Shown here: one piece after another, positions 4,233 to 41,913 of the stretch | Layout of the letters: each line of letters starts with the position of its first letter | How positions within the stretch are numbered: the stretch's first letter is position 1 | Origin: Niveispirillum irakense DSM 11586 | GTDB lineage: Bacteria; Pseudomonadota; Alphaproteobacteria; Azospirillales; Azospirillaceae | Direction of reading: 5' to 3' | Length of the DNA: 64,000 nt | NCBI RefSeq assembly: GCF_000429645.1 | Contig: NZ_AUCG01000021.1 | Coordinates: forward strand, 62,001 to 126,000 | Made by a program: the position numbers and the translations under genes | The notes under the pieces: model-generated | What the model was told of the DNA's origin: nothing | The model's database searches: none | The model's input: the letters and a program-made list of their open reading frames with translations, nothing else

Positions 4233-5501
4233 TCAAAGCTCCACTTGGCGCAGCCTCTCCCGATCGGCTTTCAGCGTTAGGGCGGCGTCAGCGCGCGCCC
4301 ATGCCAGATCAGCCTGATGCACGGCCGCCGCGCAGAAATCCGGCTCGCAATGGACCTTGCGGGCAAGCGCTGCCAAGGCTTTGCGCAGTCGGATCTGGAC
4401 CTCCACCAGCCCGGCACCGTCACGGGCGATCAGCATGAAGGCATCCTCAAAAAGGTCGGCGGTGGACAGTGGCGGGACATGGATATTGGGGTGGTCAACC
4501 GCTTCGCTTTCCGGTTTGGTCGGCCCCTGCCCCCATAAATCCATCAACCGGGTCATGCGGCCAATCACGTCGATGGCGGTACCGGAATCATTCACCCCCG
4601 GCGACATGGCGCGCGAGGCAATCTCGCTCATCACGGCCAGACCGAAGCGCGGGTCCTGGTCGAAACTGCGTTCATTGCCGATGGTAAAGGCGCGGCGCAT
4701 GCCCTCACCAAAGGCGTCGATCTCCTCCCCCTCCAGTGAAGGACGGTCCATCCAGAGCAATGGGGTATCGCCATAGACGAATGTGCCGGGCAGGGTCAGC
4801 ACATGAATATCCCGCTTGCCCCGCTCAGAACAGGCGGTCAGCGCCGGCATGTCGATATGCTGGACATAGCCGACGCATCCGGCTGTCACGATCAACGCCT
4901 GTGCTGGCGGCTCCAGCAACCCTGCCGCCAATTTTCGCCCGCCGAGATAGGGCAGCGCCAGCCGGTGGCGCATGGCGGCTTCGGTGGCCCGTTCCACCCG
5001 GTCGGTCGTCTCCCCCACCCGGCCCAGCCGGGTCAGATGGTCAATCCAGCGCAGCAGGGAAATAACAATCAGCGCGATCACGCCCAGCGTCACCGCGAAC
5101 AGGATCACCCGCCCCCGCTCCCCATAGGCACCGGTCTGCAGCACGATGATGCCGACAATGCCGAACAGAAAAGACCCGATGAAGGTGGACAGGACATTCT
5201 GCGTTGTCCGATCCTCCATCAACAGCCGGGTAGCGCGCGGCGTAACATTGCTGGTGGCTGCCCCATAGGCAGACGTCATGACCGACAGGGAGAATGTCGT
5301 CACCGACAACATGCTGGACGCGATGATGGTGAGGATACTGTCAATGGAATCCGCCCCCATCGCCCCCGGCAGATGCCAGGGTATATAAGGCTCGACCACC
5401 GCCGCCAGGATAGCCGTCAGGATGCCCAGCAGCCCGATAAGGCTGGCCCGCAGCCAGAGCCGCCGGGTTAATTGTTTGAAAATCCACTGCCAACGCGACA
5501 T
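4233..5501 (-). CDS. DUF2254 integral membrane protein
   Basis: A 422-residue protein with hydrophobic segments in its first 150 residues, including LIGLLGILTAILAAVV and two segments near residues 95-140, and a long soluble C-terminal part. The MLSVTTFSLSVMTSAYGAATSNVTPRA stretch (split here as MLSVTTFSLSVMTS and AYGAATSNVTPRA) marks DUF2254, a family of unknown function. The ATG at 5501 is preferred over an in-frame codon ten residues upstream because AGAGGGGGAA lies just before it. It is monocistronic and not obviously linked to formate metabolism. Confidence 0.85.
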   Translation of the reverse strand: MSRWQWIFKQLTRRLWLRASLIGLLGILTAILAAVVEPYIPWHLPGAMGADSIDSILTIIASSMLSVTTFSLSVMTSAYGAATSNVTPRATRLLMEDRTTQNVLSTFIGSFLFGIVGIIVLQTGAYGERGRVILFAVTLGVIALIVISLLRWIDHLTRLGRVGETTDRVERATEAAMRHRLALPYLGGRKLAAGLLEPPAQALIVTAGCVGYVQHIDMPALTACSERGKRDIHVLTLPGTFVYGDTPLLWMDRPSLEGEEIDAFGEGMRRAFTIGNERSFDQDPRFGLAVMSEIASRAMSPGVNDSGTAIDVIGRMTRLMDLWGQGPTKPESEAVDHPNIHVPPLSTADLFEDAFMLIARDGAGLVEVQIRLRKALAALARKVHCEPDFCAAAVHQADLAWARADAALTLKADRERLRQVEL

Positions 5502-5725: not shown

Positions 5726-6625
5726 TCAACATACAGTAACTTTGTTCTTCAATTTAGAATCAAATTGAAGGTTGCAATTTTCATCCAAATAAAATACGCT
5801 ATTTTTGATAAATAAAGATTCATTAAAGTATTTCAAGATATTTATCTTTGTATCAATTAAATCAATCCTAATATCAAGTAATTCATCTCTCATTTGCGAG
5901 TTTGTGATAATTGAAATTATTAGAGATCTATCAAAGAAATCAGCCTTTCCAGTATTATTACAGTTAGAAATCCTCGAACAATGCAATCGAGAAGCATCGA
6001 TTGATATTTTTGCTGTAACACTAGAATGTAATTCTATCTCTAAATTATTAATAACAACCGCGGTGGCGACAATAAATTCTTCACAAATTTCATTTTTTAT
6101 GCCCAATTTTTTAAATGAAAAAAGCAATTCTGAGTATGCATCTTCTATTGTAAAGGCAGGCCTGATAGAAATTGTCCTACAAAACAAACTAGCAATTCTA
6201 TAGAATCTAGACACATTCTTTGCATTGATTTCTGTTGGAAATTTGTCTTTTTTTGCGAACCAAGAAAGAATTTCTGCTTTTACCGTTGTTTTTGACATTC
6301 CAATCTCTTTTAAGAGATCGCTTGATGAGTATTCTTCGATTTTACTTTCAAAATATGGCTTCATCCACCACTCACAAGCGCCATTATGATTAAGAGGCTT
6401 TTGTTTTTTAGACTCAGATCCAAGCTGATAAACCTGAGCAAAAGCAAATTGCGAGTATGCATTTATAATTGTATTAAAGCTTCCCCCTTTATCTCTTTTG
6501 GGGTGGGCAATGAAATCTCCTATTTCACGAATGAATGGGCCGTGATTAAATCTTTCTTTTATATAGAATTGCCCCACATCTGAATCGGTATAGTTTCCAT
6601 TTTTTATCCTCGTTAAATAGGCCAT
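5726..6625 (-). CDS. Hypothetical protein of atypical AT-rich composition
   Basis: A 299-residue protein that I do not recognise. It is soluble in appearance and rich in Ile, Asn, Lys and Ser. It contains an IGDFIAHPKRDKGG segment near residue 38 and a DLLKEIGMSKTTVKAEIL segment near 105 that could be a helix-turn-helix. The coding sequence and both flanks are strikingly AT-rich compared with everything around them, and codon choice differs sharply. AGGAGCATTT precedes the ATG, so it is probably expressed. No integrase, transposase or flanking repeat was found. It is probably acquired horizontally. Confidence 0.7.
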   Translation of the reverse strand: MAYLTRIKNGNYTDSDVGQFYIKERFNHGPFIREIGDFIAHPKRDKGGSFNTIINAYSQFAFAQVYQLGSESKKQKPLNHNGACEWWMKPYFESKIEEYSSSDLLKEIGMSKTTVKAEILSWFAKKDKFPTEINAKNVSRFYRIASLFCRTISIRPAFTIEDAYSELLFSFKKLGIKNEICEEFIVATAVVINNLEIELHSSVTAKISIDASRLHCSRISNCNNTGKADFFDRSLIISIITNSQMRDELLDIRIDLIDTKINILKYFNESLFIKNSVFYLDENCNLQFDSKLKNKVTVC

Positions 6626-34953: not shown

Positions 34954-35643
34954 CTAGCGGGAAATCTGATCCAGAAAGCTTTCATCCTTAACAACCAGAT
35001 AGCCATTGCGATAGGTGATGGCCTCAGCTTTCTGGAAGCTCTTCAGCGTTTTATTCACCATTTCACGCGATACGCCCAGCATATTGGCCAGATCTTCCTG
35101 GCTGACAAACGTGGCGATTCGCAATCCGCCTTCAGTCTGCCGGCCATATGTCTGCGCCAGCATCAGGATACGTTTGGCCAGACGGCGCGGCACATTGAGG
35201 AAAACCGTGTCTTCAATGATGGCGCTGGTCCATCGGACACGCTGGCACAAGACCCCCATCAAACGGATGCAGAGATCGGGGCGCGTCTCCAGAAAGGGCA
35301 TGAAATCCCGGCGGTCGATACGCAACAACTCACTGGCTTCCTGTGCCATCACGGTAGCGGTCCGCTCCCCCCCGTCCAGCATGGCGATTTCCCCGAACAC
35401 CGCGCCGGCATCCAGGATATTCAGCAGCATGAGTTTAGCGTCGGGCGATTCCGTCTGCACCGCGACCCGACCACGCAGCAGAACATAAAGACTGTCTCCG
35501 GGATCACCCTTGGCGAAAATCCGCTCTTCTGCTGCCACACGCCGGAGGCGGGCGAATTCCAACACCGCCGCCATTTCCGTATCGCTCAACACACCGAACA
35601 GGTGATTGCGGCGCAAAAGGTCGATATCAATGGATGTCGCCAA
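34954..35643 (-). CDS. Crp/Fnr-family transcriptional regulator
   Basis: A regulator of about 229 residues. The cNMP-binding barrel (FAKGDPGDSLYVLLRGRVAV; GAVFGEIAMLDGGERTATV) includes a Glu and an Arg-Thr pair like the cAMP-binding cassette of CRP. The C-terminal helix-turn-helix has the recognition helix SREMVNKTLKSFQ, where CRP has SRETVGRILK, so a TGTGA-type target is plausible. The FNR cluster cysteines are absent. The start is unclear; TTG at 35643 after GAGGA is chosen, with TTG 35715 as the alternative. It follows tfuA on the same strand. Confidence 0.87.
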   Translation of the reverse strand: MATSIDIDLLRRNHLFGVLSDTEMAAVLEFARLRRVAAEERIFAKGDPGDSLYVLLRGRVAVQTESPDAKLMLLNILDAGAVFGEIAMLDGGERTATVMAQEASELLRIDRRDFMPFLETRPDLCIRLMGVLCQRVRWTSAIIEDTVFLNVPRRLAKRILMLAQTYGRQTEGGLRIATFVSQEDLANMLGVSREMVNKTLKSFQKAEAITYRNGYLVVKDESFLDQISR

Positions 35644-35716
35644 TACCCGTTCCTCGCCAGTACCCGCTTGGGGGGCATAGGACCTCAGGATTGGGACTTC
35701 CCTGCAAAAATGCAAG

Positions 35717-36472
35717 TCAAACGGGCACGGACAGAACAGGCTGTGCTACACGGTCCCAATTAAACGTATGTTCAAAGGCGAAGCTGGGCGTGACCTTCAG
35801 CGACCCCATCGCCATGCCGTCACGGATATGGGCCAGCAGGGCCAGGGCATCCAGCCTTTTCTGATCAACGTGGCCGCCTTCAGCGATCCAGACCCGCAAC
35901 CGCTCCAACTCGGCCGCACCAGCCCCTTCCTCCACAGCCTCGCGGAAGACGCGCCCGAAACTACGCTCCCGATAGGGCAGGTCCTTGGCGATCCGTTGAA
36001 GCTGCTGGCGCTGGTATGCCGTGATGATGCCCGCCGCGAATGCATCCGACAATGTACGCCGGATATTGACCATGGCTTCCGACAGCATGGGATAGCCGAT
36101 TTCCCCCGGGCCATGGATGATGGCGACCTCGTCATCATCCTCCAGCCGCCCATCCAGATAAGCGGCGAAGATATCCCCGATCCCGGTCATCCCGAAACTG
36201 TGCAGTTCGGCCGCGCGCAATGCCCCCATACTGGCCGCCCCCAGAACCGGGATGCCCCGATGCAGGGCGAACAGGATCTCTTTGTGCCAGACAGAGGGCA
36301 TGTTGGCGAAATAGCCATCGATGATCGCAATGGCGGCCGGCTGCTCCGTCACGGCGCGCAGCACATCACCCTGGGCCACGGGCGGGCGGTAATCCGCCTC
36401 CAGGACACGGCGGGCCTCGCTCACCGGCAGGGTAGGGCCCAGGAAAACGATCACCTGATTGCTCATTGCCAT
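35717..36472 (-). CDS. TfuA-like protein
   Basis: A 251-residue TfuA-domain protein (VIVFLGPTLPVSEARRVL at the start; the GVPVLGAASMGALRAAEL-like segment GIPVLGAASMGALRAAEL near residue 75). TfuA proteins work with YcaO enzymes: in methanogens the pair thioamidates methyl-CoM reductase, and in bacterial RiPP clusters TfuA-linked YcaO enzymes make peptide thioamides or related groups. TfuA is thought to supply or handle sulfide. It is 27 bases downstream of ycaO and shares its direction, so the pair should act together. Confidence 0.92.
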   Translation of the reverse strand: MAMSNQVIVFLGPTLPVSEARRVLEADYRPPVAQGDVLRAVTEQPAAIAIIDGYFANMPSVWHKEILFALHRGIPVLGAASMGALRAAELHSFGMTGIGDIFAAYLDGRLEDDDEVAIIHGPGEIGYPMLSEAMVNIRRTLSDAFAAGIITAYQRQQLQRIAKDLPYRERSFGRVFREAVEEGAGAAELERLRVWIAEGGHVDQKRLDALALLAHIRDGMAMGSLKVTPSFAFEHTFNWDRVAQPVLSVPV

Positions 36473-36499
36473 TCTCTCCTTTGCCGGGGCGGAGCGATT

Positions 36500-37735
36500 T
36501 TAAAGACCCGTGATGCAACGGGCACGGGGGCCAAGCGCATAGGTGGGACTGCCGTCCACACCCTCCAGACCCGGCACGATCACCCGCACAACGGGGATGC
36601 CGATTTCCGGTCGGGTCAGGTCAACGACAATCACATCCTCAATGCCGACGCGGGCCAGCCGTGTCCGCAGTTCCGCCAGATCGTCCCGCAAGGACTGGCC
36701 ACGCCACCCCTGGATTGCGTTGAAATCCCGCAGTAACGGGCCAAGCTGGATGCGGGCGAGCCACCTTTCCTGCTCCTGCTCAGACAGGAAATGCTCATAC
36801 TCTTCCCGCCCCATATCGTCGCGGGCGCCGGAAATGAAGGTGAGCCGGCTTTGCGCCGCTTCCGTCAGGGCGCGGGACAAGGCGATGGCAGGGACCAGAT
36901 GCGTGCCATAGCCCGACGCCGGACGCACCGAACTCTGCCCCCCGCTGCTGGTCTGAACGATCCGGGCCAGGAAAGTGGGCACGCCGGTATCGGCCGTCAT
37001 GTCCCAGACGCCAACGGCCACGCCGGCCCGGGCGAACTTGGCCAGAAGGGCGCGGCAGGTCGGGTCGGCAACCGTTTCCAGATCGACGCGCGTTTCTTCC
37101 TGCGCCGCTTCGGGCAACAGGTTCCACAAGGTGCGCGCGTCGCGTTCAATCACTTCGCAGAGGCCATGAAGGACGGCCTCAATCCAATGATTGCCGGAAG
37201 CCAGCCCGTTGCTGGTCGCCTGGAAGCAGCCATGGCCCGTGGGCAAGGGCAAAGTATAGTTGGTGTGCACCATCTCGTAAGGCACCCAGCAGCCGGTGCC
37301 ATCCTTCAGATTGGTGCCCTCCGCCCACAGCATCTGGGCATGGGGGGTGTAGAGACTATCCACGTGACAGGGCAGCAGGGCCGGATCGATCAAAGGCAGC
37401 GCGTAGCGCAGATCCTCATAAGAACCATGACGCAGGGGAAGCTGTACCCGCTCTGCGTGCCACGCTTCGATTGATTCCATGACCGCCGATGCCTTGGCAG
37501 CGGCCAGGCTGGTGCCTTTTCCCTGCGAGACGGCCAGCGACCGGGAATTGGGCCTGTTCACCATCACGACGGGGATGCCGACTGTATCCAGGCCCGTAAC
37601 ATTGGCAACACGGGTGATACCAAAGGCACCCAGCAGCGGGGTGACCTTGGCCAGCGTCTCTTCGGCGGAGACGAGGCGACGCCATTGCGGCGAACCGATG
37701 CTGTCCCACTCGGTCTGGCGAACCTGTTCCATCAT
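36500..37735 (-). CDS. YcaO-family ATP-dependent peptide-modifying enzyme
   Basis: A 411-residue YcaO enzyme. The ATP-site segments are visible: SQGKGTS at about residues 70-76, the acidic MESIEAWHAE at about 86-95, and the CEVIERDA motif at about 193-200. YcaO proteins phosphorylate a peptide backbone amide so that a Cys/Ser/Thr side chain or external sulfide can attack. The C-terminus lacks the Pro-rich PxPxP end of azoline-forming YcaOs, and TfuA is adjacent, so thioamidation is the best guess. A small peptide gene lies just upstream. Confidence 0.92.
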   Translation of the reverse strand: MMEQVRQTEWDSIGSPQWRRLVSAEETLAKVTPLLGAFGITRVANVTGLDTVGIPVVMVNRPNSRSLAVSQGKGTSLAAAKASAVMESIEAWHAERVQLPLRHGSYEDLRYALPLIDPALLPCHVDSLYTPHAQMLWAEGTNLKDGTGCWVPYEMVHTNYTLPLPTGHGCFQATSNGLASGNHWIEAVLHGLCEVIERDARTLWNLLPEAAQEETRVDLETVADPTCRALLAKFARAGVAVGVWDMTADTGVPTFLARIVQTSSGGQSSVRPASGYGTHLVPAIALSRALTEAAQSRLTFISGARDDMGREEYEHFLSEQEQERWLARIQLGPLLRDFNAIQGWRGQSLRDDLAELRTRLARVGIEDVIVVDLTRPEIGIPVVRVIVPGLEGVDGSPTYALGPRARCITGL

Positions 37736-37815
37736 CTGTCCCTTGTCGCGTCCATCCCATGTTCCCAGGCCTGCCAGGAAAAATTGGGATCAGGTCCGGC
37801 GGAAAAAGATCGGCA

Positions 37816-37845
37816 GGCCCGGTGGAGATATCTCCCCACCAGGCC
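37816..37845 (-). terminator. Hairpin between peptide gene and ycaO, possible attenuator
   Basis: Minus-strand GGCCTGGTGG pairs with CCACCGGGCC around a short AT-rich tip. A TTTTT run follows eight bases later. It lies between the peptide stop (37854) and the ycaO start (37735). A partial terminator here would give more peptide mRNA than enzyme mRNA, as in many RiPP operons. The gap before the T-run makes termination uncertain. Confidence 0.45.
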
Positions 37846-37853
37846 GGAACCGG

Positions 37854-38015
37854 TCAGCGCCGGGCGCTGTGCAACTCGGCGCTGGCACCGACATCCATGG
37901 CCAGACGCGGCGCGGCAACACGGGCCTGCGGGGCAGCACTCACAGCGGTGGAGACAATTTCGGCCCCATTCGGACCAATACGATAAAGGCGGCCATCGGC
38001 ACCACGCATCAGCAT
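37854..38015 (-). CDS. Small peptide, candidate YcaO-TfuA substrate
   Basis: A 53-residue peptide (57 if it starts at ATG 38027). ATG 38015 has GGAGAGCAAG just before it. The first half, MLMRGADGRLYRIGPNGAEI, looks like a folded or recognition segment; the second half is Ala/Val/Arg-rich with Ser and Thr but no Cys and ends SARR. It is the first gene upstream of ycaO and tfuA in the same direction, the usual place for a RiPP precursor. There is no double-glycine cleavage site, and no protease or exporter gene is adjacent. Precursor function is inference from position, size and layout. Confidence 0.6.
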   Translation of the reverse strand: MLMRGADGRLYRIGPNGAEIVSTAVSAAPQARVAAPRLAMDVGASAELHSARR

Positions 38016-38109
38016 CTTGCTCTCCATCTGATTTCAATTGTAGGCGAACAGTGAAAGAGCCCTGGGCATCCTTCGCCGCAGACGGTAAAACAGCGTATGG
38101 CATTTAAAA

Positions 38110-38125
38110 CGTGAACTGGTTCACA
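38110..38125. promoter_or_regulatory. Crp-type operator upstream of the peptide gene
   Basis: CGTGAACTGGTTCACA matches the TGTGA-N6-TCACA consensus at nine of ten positions and has perfect GTGA/TCAC arms with the required six-base spacer (the inner GTGAAC/GTTCAC arms extend it). It lies about 95 bases upstream of the peptide ATG and about 80 bases from the divergent ribbon-helix-helix gene. A Crp-type regulator with a CRP-like recognition helix is encoded in the same gene group. Confidence 0.6.
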
Positions 38126-38238: not shown

Positions 38239-38264
38239 AATGATGTGCCGGAATGATGTGCCGG
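38239..38264. repeat. 13-bp tandem duplication at the 5' end of the RHH gene
   Basis: AATGATGTGCCGG occurs twice head to tail (38239-38251 and 38252-38264) with no mismatch. Thirteen is not a multiple of three, so the frame changes across it. Removing one copy joins the well-placed upstream ATG at 38206 in frame with the downstream protein. Confidence 0.9.
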
Positions 38265-38551
38265 TCTATGAGCCCCATGACCTGGAAGTGGACGGCCAGC
38301 TCATCAGTCATAATGTGTGGGTGGACGGGCACCGGACCAGCGTGCGGCTGGAAGCGGTCATGTGGCAGGCCTTGCATGAAATTGCTGATCGCGAAATGCT
38401 GACCATCCATCAGGTGATCACCATCGTGTCCCGCCGGCAGCACCAGAATGCTTCGCTGACGGCAACGATCCGTGCCTTCCTGGTCGCCTATTTCCGGGCC
38501 CTTTCCAAGGGGAACCGGTCCTTGATGCTGCGGGAAGTGGCAGGCGGCTGA
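38240..38551 (+). CDS. Ribbon-helix-helix domain protein with disrupted 5' end
   Basis: A 103-residue protein. The segment WVDGHRTSVRLEAVMWQALHE (read in parts, about residues 27-47) followed by MLTIHQVITIVSRRQ is the ribbon-helix-helix pattern of the RHH_4 group, a DNA-binding fold. The best ribosome-binding site (AAGGACGAGG) precedes ATG 38206, but that frame ends after 16 codons because of the 13-bp duplication. Translation of the domain would now have to start at ATG 38240 or 38243, created within the duplicated unit. It is divergent from the YcaO operon. Confidence 0.72.
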   Translation: MMCRNDVPVYEPHDLEVDGQLISHNVWVDGHRTSVRLEAVMWQALHEIADREMLTIHQVITIVSRRQHQNASLTATIRAFLVAYFRALSKGNRSLMLREVAGG

Positions 38552-38659: not shown

Positions 38660-41575
38660 TCAGGCCCCTGCAGGCAGGGGGGAACCGGCCCTCACCTGTT
38701 CCTCCGTTGGGAGGATGAGGGCGAGCAGACCATAGCCCCCCTTTTCCAGAATATCGGCAAGGGCCGTCCGTTCGGACAGGGCTTGAGTTGTCAGGCCAAT
38801 CCGGGCCAGGGCGAGGATGCGTCCATACCGTGCCCAGACCATATGAAGGCGGGCGTTACGCCGGGTGGTTCCCACCTCCGCCCTTTCAATCTCGGCCAAC
38901 CCTTCCACCCCCTGACCAAGATTGATCATCGCCAGCCCGCGCCGGACCTGTAAAGGGTTGTCCAACAACGGGGAGCCCGCAGCCCCCGACAGGGCCAAGC
39001 CTTGGCGTGACAGGGTGAAAGCCTCGTTATAGTGGCCCAGCCGGACCTTGACCTCCGCCGCATAGGTACGGGCGAAGATGCGGTTGAACGGATAGTGCCC
39101 GGTATCGGCCAGGTGCAGGGCATGCATGACAAATGTGTCGGCTTCCGCAGGCCGGTCCATATAAGACAGGCAGCGGGCACGCATGATGGCGGTCACCATC
39201 GCGCTATCGACCATCAGGAACCGACCGGGCGTGTGGTTTTCCCAAGCCCGCTCTTCCCCCGCCCTTTCCAGCAGGGACAGCGACGCGGCAAGCTGCCCAT
39301 GCTCCAGCAGACAGCAGGCGGCCAGGATCATGACCTCCGGATGGGGGGCTGATGCGCCCACATGCTGACTGAGCGTGAGGGCTTGTTGCGACAACGCAAC
39401 TGCATGACGCAGGTCGCCATAGACCCATTCATAACTGATCTGCTGGACCAGCCCCGCCAGGGCGCTTTCATCATCACCGGCCTGTCGCGCCAGAAGAATG
39501 GCATCATCAAGCGCTTCCATGGCGCGCGCATGCAGACCAGCCGGCATGGCGGCACGGGCAAGCGTCAATCGCAGATCCACGCCGGCGCGGTGTTTCTCAC
39601 TCCCCGCTGGCATCCGGTCATTGGCATTGATTGCCAGAGCAAAGAGTGAAACCGCTTCTGCGGCCAGGGAGCGGCGCAACGATTCCATGCCGGCTTCCCG
39701 GCCGGCTGCCAGGGCGACAGGCCAGAGTTGCGCCTGTCCCGCATGACGCGCCTGGGCGGCACGACGGCCGGGCAGGCTGGCGAAGTCAGCCATATCCAGC
39801 AAGTCAACCAGACGGGTATGAAGACGCTGCCGGTCGCGGCGGGTGATCCCCTCATAGACCGCTTCATGCAGCAGCGCGTGATGGAATGAATATTCCAGGC
39901 GCGGCAGAAGCCGGGTCTCATCAATCATTCCCGCAGCCGCCAGGCCACCAAGGGGCAATGTCTGTACCGATTGGCCGATCAAGCCCGCCAGAAGTGCCGC
40001 ATCAAAGGTCGGGCCGATCACGGCGGCGGCCCGCAATGTATCCCGCAAGGGGTCTCGCAGCACATCGGTACGGGCGGCAAGCAATGCCTGTACCGTGTCG
40101 GGCAGATGGCCCCGTGCCGGCACGCCCAGTCGCATCGCACCGGGGGAACCAGTGACCACCCCCTGATCCTGCAGCACCCGCACGCATTCGACTAAAAAGA
40201 AGGGATTCCCCTGGGCGCGGCGCAGCAGGTCGGCCTTCACCGGTGCCAAAGCCGGGTCCATGCCCATCCGGCTATCCAGCAGCGCCCCTGCCTCTTCTGA
40301 GGTGAGCGGTGCCAAACGGTGGCGCTTGACCGCCAGCCCTATATCCAGCGCGGGAGGAAGGACCTCTTCCCGGCTGCTGGCCAGCAGCATTACGGGATGC
40401 CCCACCATACGCGGCAACAGGGCGGAGAGAACGGTGAGGACTTCTGTCCCCGCCCAATGCAGATCCTCCACCAGCAGCAGCAGCGGCCGGGTGCGTGCGC
40501 CGGCTGCTGCAATATCTGCAATGGCGCCTGCGGCCAGGACCAGACGGTTTTCACCGGCTTTAGGGCGCGCGGCATTGGCATCATTATGCAGCAGCAGGGA
40601 AAGTGATTGAGCGCCCTGGTCCGAGGCACCGGCGGCCATGATCAACGCCAGCGTCTCTTCCCGGGTCGCCGGCAGGGGGCCATCCAGCAATTCTGCCGTC
40701 AATTCGTGCAGAAGGCTGGGGGCGTCCAGTGGCATGATCGCAGGCACCGCCCATTCAACCACACGGACACCGCGCCAGCGCGCATCGGCAGCCAAAAGGG
40801 CCATCAGCTTGGACTTACCCAAGCCGGCCTCCCCCGTCACCATATGCAAGGCGGGAACCACACCGCTGCCCGATACCGGCATCCGCCCGGTCAGCACCGA
40901 TAAGGCATCCGAGAGCGTGCGGCGCAACCTGTCACGCCCAACCATCGGGGAGGCATCGCTGGCCTGGAGACGGCGGCGGCGAATACCCATCACCTGGAAA
41001 GCGGAAAGCCTGTCGGTCGGGGTCAGATCCACAGGCTCAACCGCCTTCACATCCACCCAGTCGCCCGCCAGGGCCGCCGTGCTGTCTGCGATACGGATAC
41101 TGTTCGGCACGGCCGATTGCAGCAGCTTGGCAGCCGCATTGACCGCCCGCCCGATAACCGGGGCACCGATGCGGGCCTGCATCGCCGCGCCATCCCATAA
41201 AACCTCACCAGAACAAAGGCCCAGGCGCAAGGCGATCTGATGATCGCGCCCCACCTCACGCAACATGGCATCCGCCGCAAAGCAGGCTCTTGCGGCATGG
41301 TTTTCCTGGGCCGCCGGGGCCCCGAAAATGGCGTAAACACCGTCCCCCAATGTCTGGCACAGGGTGCCGCCATACCGGGTCACATGACGGATCATCATGT
41401 CGATGGCGCCCGCCAACAGTTCGCGGGCATCTTCGGGATCCTGCGGCGCGATCAGATGGGTGGAGTTGACGATATCGCAGAACAGAATCGTGGCTGAACG
41501 GCGGTCAGACAGCCCTACGCCCTTCAGGGCGGCATGCGATCCGAAAAGATCGACGGGCGGCATATGTTCAGCCAT
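38660..41575 (-). CDS. Class III adenylate cyclase fused to an AAA/STAND-type ATPase and TPR-like repeats
   Basis: A 971-residue cytoplasmic signalling protein. Residues about 25-200 form a class III nucleotide cyclase domain with metal-binding aspartates in FCDIVNSTH (about 34) and GDGVYAIFG (about 78). A P-loop ATPase follows (TGEAGLGKSK, about 275) with a Walker-B-like LLLLVEDLHWAG, then about 450 residues of helical repeats. No membrane segment is present. The ATG at 41575 follows GGAGGGTGGACAGAG. This architecture is widespread in alphaproteobacteria. It could supply cAMP for the Crp-type regulator nearby, though the ligand and trigger are unknown. Confidence 0.88.
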   Translation of the reverse strand: MAEHMPPVDLFGSHAALKGVGLSDRRSATILFCDIVNSTHLIAPQDPEDARELLAGAIDMMIRHVTRYGGTLCQTLGDGVYAIFGAPAAQENHAARACFAADAMLREVGRDHQIALRLGLCSGEVLWDGAAMQARIGAPVIGRAVNAAAKLLQSAVPNSIRIADSTAALAGDWVDVKAVEPVDLTPTDRLSAFQVMGIRRRRLQASDASPMVGRDRLRRTLSDALSVLTGRMPVSGSGVVPALHMVTGEAGLGKSKLMALLAADARWRGVRVVEWAVPAIMPLDAPSLLHELTAELLDGPLPATREETLALIMAAGASDQGAQSLSLLLHNDANAARPKAGENRLVLAAGAIADIAAAGARTRPLLLLVEDLHWAGTEVLTVLSALLPRMVGHPVMLLASSREEVLPPALDIGLAVKRHRLAPLTSEEAGALLDSRMGMDPALAPVKADLLRRAQGNPFFLVECVRVLQDQGVVTGSPGAMRLGVPARGHLPDTVQALLAARTDVLRDPLRDTLRAAAVIGPTFDAALLAGLIGQSVQTLPLGGLAAAGMIDETRLLPRLEYSFHHALLHEAVYEGITRRDRQRLHTRLVDLLDMADFASLPGRRAAQARHAGQAQLWPVALAAGREAGMESLRRSLAAEAVSLFALAINANDRMPAGSEKHRAGVDLRLTLARAAMPAGLHARAMEALDDAILLARQAGDDESALAGLVQQISYEWVYGDLRHAVALSQQALTLSQHVGASAPHPEVMILAACCLLEHGQLAASLSLLERAGEERAWENHTPGRFLMVDSAMVTAIMRARCLSYMDRPAEADTFVMHALHLADTGHYPFNRIFARTYAAEVKVRLGHYNEAFTLSRQGLALSGAAGSPLLDNPLQVRRGLAMINLGQGVEGLAEIERAEVGTTRRNARLHMVWARYGRILALARIGLTTQALSERTALADILEKGGYGLLALILPTEEQVRAGSPLPAGA

Positions 41576-41913
41576 CTCTGTCCACCCTCCTGGGGACAAT
41601 GACCGGAACCGACTTCCGGTGCCCGGCCCGCCTAGTAGAATATGAATACCACTTTGGTGTGCCTTCATACAATAGCACCACCGTGATGACCCGCAAGCGC
41701 CGACTGCCCCGAAGCAGGAATGAAAAAATACTGGCTCGGGGCCAGGATGGATGGGAAGAGCGCCCTTCATCCTTTATTAGGCAAGATAGGGGACAATGCG
41801 GGCGCCGGAACGAACGGCCGGCATCATCGCTTCCGGCATTATCCTTGTGGGCACCTGCCCATTGTGGAATAATGCCTCTTGTCATTGTCGACCGTTCAAA
41901 GGGCATGGCCTTT
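41576..41913. other. Non-coding gap between the cyclase gene and flaF
   Basis: This 338-base region separates two divergent genes and must hold both promoters. No RNA gene, clear sigma-54 (TGGCAC-N5-TTGC) site or strong hairpin was found in it. An in-frame extension of flaF runs through most of it but has no family match. Confidence 0.5.

Follow-up and report, generated by a model that had tools for sequence, protein, structure and literature searches.

A YcaO-TfuA operon with a conserved candidate precursor peptide and a Crp-like regulator in Niveispirillum irakense and other Azospirillaceae

Gene content of the YcaO-TfuA locus

The stretch of DNA analysed here, referred to as the window, is 64,000 nucleotides from Niveispirillum irakense DSM 11586 (contig NZ_AUCG01000021.1, positions 62,001 to 126,000), and the system in question is an operon within it encoding a 53-residue peptide together with a YcaO and a TfuA protein. 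An original prediction, made from the sequence alone, had proposed the peptide as the substrate of these two enzymes in a ribosomally synthesized and post-translationally modified peptide (RiPP) or thioamidation system. The features of the locus, in window coordinates, were as follows.

37854..38015, minus strand: candidate precursor peptide gene, 53 aa (open reading frame (ORF) and relatives)
38020..38025, minus strand: ribosome-binding site GGAGAG of the precursor, 5–10 bases 5' of the ATG (sequence)
37816..37845, minus strand: hairpin in the gap between the precursor gene and ycaO (folding and shuffles)
36500..37735, minus strand: YcaO, 411 aa (PF02624, E 9e-90)
35717..36472, minus strand: TfuA, 251 aa (PF07812, E 2e-46)
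34954..35715, minus strand: Crp-like regulator, final operon gene, 253-aa frame from a TTG (PF00027 and PF13545)
38110..38125, read on the minus strand: CRP box TGTGAACCAGTTCACG (pattern scan; the sole such box in the window)
38660..41770, minus strand: class III nucleotide cyclase-AAA-TPR protein, 1036 aa, conserved upstream gene (PF00211, PF13191)
38240..38551, plus strand: divergent ribbon-helix-helix (RHH_4) gene in the same promoter region (PF13467, E 1e-19)

The order precursor, ycaO, tfuA and crp-like gene is interrupted by intergenic gaps of 118, 27 and 1 bases only, and the four genes are therefore read as a single operon. The crp-like frame begins one base past the tfuA stop, and its true start may lie further inside the TTG frame. 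The peptide ORF with a good ribosome-binding site, the hairpin, ycaO and tfuA had all been described as running in one direction, and all were found on the minus strand; the fourth gene, the CRP box and the upstream cyclase were absent from that description. The length of 53 aa likewise stood, but the outer limit given for it, 38027, belongs to a 57-aa ORF variant with a start four codons further upstream. The position of the ribosome-binding site and the relatives favour the 53-aa start. The CRP box begins 98 bp ahead of the ATG of the 57-aa variant, the first one in frame.

The hairpin-bearing stretch had a folding energy of −41.1 kcal/mol (z −4.48), and 0 of 200 shuffles were equally stable. 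The relatives that were folded also carried stems, of unlike sequence, directly after the peptide stop, with z between −1.8 and −6.7 in a set of six sequences, and the hairpin may have a role in differential expression. As originally stated, no protease or exporter nearby was evident: none of these families scored above cut-off among the 10 proteins scanned between 32.7 and 43.3 kb. Four relatives (loci L002–L005) had the same gene set including the RHH gene, with the cyclase not seen in L003.

As expected of a YcaO-TfuA RiPP locus, the ycaO and tfuA genes are adjacent. The nearest solved relative of YcaO was MJ1094 (6pe3, E 2e-35), with which it has AKxSAxMExIE, NGLASGN, ExIERDA and RALTExAQSR stretches in common, and that of TfuA was 6xp8 (E 2e-35). 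No second YcaO or TfuA was found in the genome, which also has two ThiS-family genes elsewhere. According to PMC8120280, such pairs combine ATP-dependent activation of the backbone by YcaO with sulfur delivery, in which TfuA assists, and the TfuA hydrolase is described as working with ThiS-like carriers (PMC13063428). The YcaO of the window is thus predicted to be thioamide-forming, and its TfuA to serve in sulfur delivery.

The peptide family and its core repeats

The peptide has no Cys and no double glycine, in agreement with the original description, and gave no match to Pfam or NCBIfam at E 1; the precursor of Azospirillum strain B510 showed a weak TIGR03803 match, below cut-off, at E 0.006. 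A 26-row alignment of the family contained an invariant R-x-A-D-G-R-L near the N-terminus, in which x is Gly in nearly all sequences, and, beyond a variable middle, an Asp close to the C-terminus that was likewise invariant. From conservation and repeats, we divided the peptide into a leader at residues 1–21 (with RGADGRLYRIGPNGAEIV), a variable linker at 22–31 and a core region at 32–53 (ending in DVGASAELHSARR). Over nine Niveispirillum sequences the ratio of nonsynonymous to synonymous polymorphism (pN/pS) was 0.41, with values of 0.16, 0.76 and 0.43 for leader, linker and core respectively, a pattern of coding sequence in which the leader is constrained and the linker less so. In an AlphaFold (AF2) model built on a five-row alignment, the leader was predicted as a three-strand beta unit (predicted local distance difference test, pLDDT, 89 and 92 for the block), and the remainder was poorly ordered (pLDDT 54–61) with one short helix.

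Peptides of this family, with a leader of the RGADGRLY type, were found once per genome in 58 of 82 Azospirillaceae genomes using a 26-member profile (46 with a narrower first profile). TfuA was present in 61 of the 82, among them all 58 with the peptide, and none of the 21 TfuA-less genomes had the peptide (Fisher p 1e-16, treating genomes as independent despite their relatedness); the Azospirillum-type genome G004 lacks both. The peptide start lay 1.6–1.9 kb upstream of the TfuA-domain match in 55 of 58 genomes, and the originally stated ground for refutation, a lack of conservation next to other YcaO-TfuA pairs, was not borne out. The three spacing exceptions were one contig break (G031) and two split loci (G011 and G029), in which a part with the cyclase, RHH and peptide genes sits apart from YcaO-TfuA-Crp. 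Eleven Azospirillum plasmid records, including those of Sp7, B510 and 4B, have the peptide, annotated as 'hypothetical protein' in all four records that list a gene at that place. One family member, at L099 (genome G009, near position 5900), has an intact leader and core with no ATG, GTG or TTG in the 16 codons before the motif, due either to a sequencing error or to the use of another start.

Across the class, TfuA was found in 21 of 385 genomes, and 20 loci were taken from 17 non-Azospirillaceae ones. The class-wide peptide profile search recovered the Azospirillaceae and two weak matches, discussed below, and missed the repeat-bearing precursors that accompany TfuA in G158 and G166, probably owing to the small number of candidates scored per genome. 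With these two genomes included, family-type precursors are therefore not confined to Azospirillaceae.

Four more distant loci (L192, L195, L213 and L214), with precursor, YcaO, TfuA and Crp in the same order as in the window, encode a similar leader followed by 6–20 tandem cores, e.g. DADAGRYYVTPG. These comprise 20 AGRW units at L195, 7 AGRY at L213 and 6 AGRY at L214 (second family), and 5 AANFI cores plus one TANFI core at L192 (third family); TfuA was present in three of eight genomes of the L195 family. Within Niveispirillum, six peptides (five distinct) have two cores, whose copies are identical within a peptide and differ among strains, the matched variants being SADLH, SADLY, SAEIF and SAEIY. 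The window's own peptide has a single core, SAELH. A core pattern of Asp followed by small-small-x-hydrophobic was present in 46 of 54 distinct precursors, whereas shuffled sequences gave a mean of 10; the figure is descriptive, given that the pattern was drawn post hoc from the same data. The peptide thus lies beside YcaO-TfuA with a conserved leader and a separate core, and the tandem, concertedly changing cores suggest a RiPP precursor of the multi-core kind and would be hard to explain for a plain regulator.

It could be argued that the target of the enzyme pair is instead a housekeeping protein, by analogy with the thioamidation of uL16 by EcYcaO and of McrA by archaeal YcaO-TfuA, and that the peptide rides in the operon as a small regulator unrelated to the enzymes. 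The window's YcaO being the sole one found in its genome is consistent with such a role, as are the best NCBIfam models, which are those for McrA thioamidation. However, the E. coli-type YcaO model NF040716 gave 34.7 of 700 bits, below cut-off, and the close co-occurrence, conserved leader and tandem, concertedly changing cores argue against an unrelated peptide, making this explanation highly improbable. The tandem repeats also favour a precursor of RiPP type over the modified protein that the original prediction had allowed for. In methanogen McrA thioamidation the substrate is a protein, whereas here it would be a peptide whose relatives carry repeat cores.

An azoline or macroamidine might also be installed on the precursor in place of a thioamide, since YcaO enzymes in general are capable of such changes, and many cores contain Ser or Thr or have one close by (SAEL for the window, TP among relatives). 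Against this, the gene next to ycaO is tfuA, a marker of thioamidation in the literature, and YcaO lay next to TfuA in 60 of 60 neighbourhoods, these having been picked by TfuA; in addition, no azoline partner or dehydrogenase family was found among the 10 neighbouring proteins scanned. We assign this chemistry a very small probability. Given the co-occurrence and the repeat cores, which support the proposed enzyme-substrate relationship, we regard the 53-residue peptide as the likely precursor of a thioamidated RiPP from a new proteobacterial family with its own Crp regulon.

Other YcaO-TfuA loci, positions being oriented with ycaO, also had peptide candidates. L201 (~6202–6540) and L203 (~5950–6351) encode a precursor candidate with the leader VRTRDDSLFFVPLSDL and repeated GGKQRFA-type cores. 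Candidates at L087, L194 and L208 contain GWGDKVYFV, KWGSEIYYV and ADNGDWYEV respectively, which may be strand-turn-strand leaders related to RGADGRLYxV. A second YcaO-TfuA type was seen in Azospirillum-type genomes (L082), with an upstream 165-aa ORF (~4839–5336) bearing SAFGASAFGA repeats, which by eye we take to be a Nif11-type precursor.

A shared CRP box, the regulator and the upstream cyclase

In an alignment of 52 sequences of the Crp-like protein, most contain the GE....RTA cyclic-nucleotide motif. The presence of a CRP box was determined by scanning for TGTGA-N6-TCACA in the 350 bases upstream of precursors in 56 rows, 55 of which were kept after removal of L076, a leader-pattern match in an unrelated ORF. 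Among the 55 precursors, 47 had a perfect box, 53 a box with at most one mismatch and all 55 one with at most two, compared to Markov-shuffle expectations over the 56 rows of 0.0, 0.56 and 6.59 respectively. Six additional precursors, including that of L099, gave four perfect boxes and two with one mismatch, for a total of 61 of 61 within two mismatches, 51 of them perfect; this set represents 57 of the 58 Azospirillaceae precursors (G003 was left out) and four others.

The box also tracked the regulator gene. In the 1500 bp upstream of ycaO at 93 loci, a box with at most one mismatch accompanied the adjacent Crp in 54 of 56 cases, the other two (L109 and L113) having boxes with two mismatches. 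In the split genomes, the box was kept at both halves (L053 and L056; L097 and L115). A quick tree of 94 YcaOs placed the 56 precursor-plus-Crp rows, two of them split loci, together with L191, L200 and L208 in a group of 59 (Shimodaira-Hasegawa-like approximate likelihood ratio test, SH-aLRT, 98), with L199 left out for want of a YcaO match and long branches making the outer members of the group unsure. L191 (2552–6691), from a small alphaproteobacterial genome, encodes YcaO-TfuA-Crp with a perfect TGTGA-N6-TCACA ~1.4 kb upstream of ycaO (chance 0.04).

A genome-wide search with the strict pattern TGTGAANNNNTTCACR gave 29 places in 11 Niveispirillum genomes, compared to 2 counts in one genome for the reversed control. 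Twenty-two of these boxes were divided equally between the precursor and one GNAT acetyltransferase gene, 11 each, the latter being the only other box common to all 11 genomes. The GNAT gene is on a different contig from the operon, was found by tblastn in 11 of 11 genomes and, in the genome of the window, has a perfect CRP box (L250, 2025–2636, contig C11), follows an acyl-CoA ligase-like gene and is near a DJ-1/PfpI gene. The acyl-CoA ligase-like gene before GNAT was recognised by eye in several loci. The frame listed for the GNAT in G000 begins inside the box, so the start is probably further in. Of five GNAT members scanned with Pfam, one matched below cut-off only, and identity to the copy in the genome of the window was 38–50 %, as opposed to 64–82 % for YcaO within the same genus. 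A plasmid search gave no GNAT match.

The remaining seven strict boxes were compared by blastn; two were the same place in the close genomes G068 and G070 (L241 and L248, position 1501, inside or beside a 428-aa ORF), and the rest were unrelated. A third box in the genome of the window (L251, 1987–2002, contig C9) lies upstream of a large DUF4347 protein and is not common to the other unpaired box loci.

The upstream cyclase gave 175 bits against a cut-off of 705 for TIGR03903, the TOMM kinase/cyclase fusion; its cyclase-AAA-TPR part aligns, over profile positions 283–1138 and thus starting only at 283, and no kinase family was found in the protein in Pfam at E 1. In the window protein, the metal Asp positions are kept and the base and Arg positions are unusual: Gln and Lys stand in place of the Lys and Arg typical of class III cyclases. 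The typical Asn is retained, a position at which most relatives have His. The protein could be an atypical cyclase or, alternatively, an inactive sensor. A defence system of the Pycsar type was rejected, the PADLOC models matching only the cyclase and cyclic-nucleotide-binding stretches and the protein with the latter having a Crp DNA-binding domain.

Among Azospirillaceae loci of the precursor type, a crp gene was adjacent in 51 of 51 and the cyclase was upstream in 44 of 51. The cyclase may supply the ligand of Crp, a link made weaker by the unusual residues and the incomplete distribution. The same arrangement, with the AAA and TPR part of the cyclase and the lack of an exporter among the scanned neighbours, raises the possibility that the cyclase (as an AAA-TPR sensor) and Crp respond to the product, which would act inside the cell as a signal or cofactor, the locus being a closed signalling loop rather than a secreted-product cluster. 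We consider this unlikely, as plain regulation would be served by the same arrangement and the close relatives L071 and L003 have no cyclase match at the locus.

Proposed pathway and relation to known systems

Returning to the thioamidated-RiPP precursor, the following pathway is proposed. YcaO and TfuA would recognise the folded N-terminal leader of the RGADGRLYxV type, and through ATP-dependent backbone activation by YcaO and sulfur delivery by TfuA a backbone carbonyl oxygen in the C-terminal core would be exchanged for sulfur, perhaps in the segment of small-small-polar-hydrophobic type, which reads SAEL for the window and AGR[YWM] for many relatives. General peptidases, proposed because no dedicated protease or exporter is nearby, would probably release the thioamide-protected fragment, which the co-regulated GNAT encoded elsewhere may N-acylate. 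The Crp-like regulator of the operon, together with a cyclic nucleotide that the neighbouring cyclase possibly provides, would control both the operon and the GNAT gene through the shared TGTGAA-N4-TTCACA box.

Several observations weigh against this interpretation. For the peptide, TfuA occurs without it in three Azospirillaceae genomes (G001, G057 and G081), so the constant co-occurrence for which a check was originally proposed holds from peptide to TfuA (58 of 58) and fails in the reverse direction (58 of 61); most other proteobacterial YcaO-TfuA loci inspected lack such a leader; and the core pattern, picked after the data were seen, misses 8 of 54 distinct precursors. The two weak class-wide matches, in G348 and G389 (the latter inside a 754-aa frame), come from TfuA-less genomes and were taken as chance. 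For the enzymes, YcaO and TfuA fall below the McrA-thioamidation equivalog cut-offs in NCBIfam (TIGR03266 and NF033432), at 240/365 and 222/235 bits, so their function rests on superfamily and pairing, and the Ser in the window's own core leaves azoline chemistry compatible with the sequence. For the regulon, four of 37 loci without an adjacent Crp have a one-mismatch site (~0.5 expected), none of them perfect; L200 and L208 fall inside the precursor-type YcaO group with no adjacent Crp; L191 has a 216-aa ORF between box and ycaO with no recognisable leader peptide or precursor; the GNAT link was seen in Niveispirillum only; and the cyclase has unusual residues and was not found upstream in seven of 51 loci, some being contig ends or splits.

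YcaO-TfuA RiPPs in general are already known. Four classes had been characterised before the std class (PMC13174530); as of 2021, all known examples were from Actinobacteria, with 70 % of predicted clusters being proteobacterial (PMC8120280). The closest parallel is with the thiovarsolins (var cluster, Streptomyces varsoviensis), which, as described in PMC6511847, likewise have a YcaO-TfuA pair, which there forms a thioamide, and no specific protease in the cluster, with release thought to be by endogenous peptidases. Repeating cores, varying from none to five among thiovarsolin relatives (PMC6511847), occur in relatives here, the window peptide having one core. Some cores here carry AGR, which is similar to the APR core of the thiovarsolins, a likeness that we take only as a lead. 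The window peptide has SAELH instead of APR, and no family of the heme-oxygenase-like VarO type was found among the 10 neighbours scanned. The var cluster is actinobacterial and additionally has heme-oxygenase-like, ATP-grasp, MFS and amidinotransferase genes, and its description in PMC6511847 mentions no Crp, cyclase or CRP box. Thiovarsolins are N-acetylated, presumably by an endogenous acetyltransferase (PMC6511847), and the placement of a GNAT under the shared box, which is the boldest specific prediction here, fits this precedent.

In the std cluster, with its thioamidated Asn, YcaO-TfuA acts first on a precursor from the same cluster, as proposed here, while the precursor motif SNKEWQE and the partner enzymes differ (as described in PMC13174530). 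Many proteobacterial clusters with the same enzyme pair have been predicted by mining, their products being unknown (Malit 2021, PMC8120280); the main text of that study contains no Azospirillum, cyclase, Crp or repeat, and its supplementary tables may list these loci. No description of the precursor family, leader motif, Crp operon gene or box was met in the literature searched, supplements and most subscription papers lying outside it.

Through these results a probable substrate, with its leader motif and repeated cores, can be named for one proteobacterial family, along with a regulator gene, an operator-like box and a candidate for the tailoring enzyme; the family is present in Azospirillum strains such as Sp7, B510 and 4B. 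The product, the thioamide site and the inducing signal thereby become directly testable, and the findings suggest that RiPP enzymes encoded outside a cluster can be revealed by a box held in common. A further possibility, which we put forward tentatively, is that short peptides of a new class, thioamidated and N-acylated, are produced by Azospirillum, Niveispirillum and other alphaproteobacteria from precursors with one to twenty cores. A private regulon, governed by a cyclic nucleotide and Crp, would tie an unlinked acetyltransferase to the operon, and the modified peptide may itself feed the cyclase-Crp circuit.

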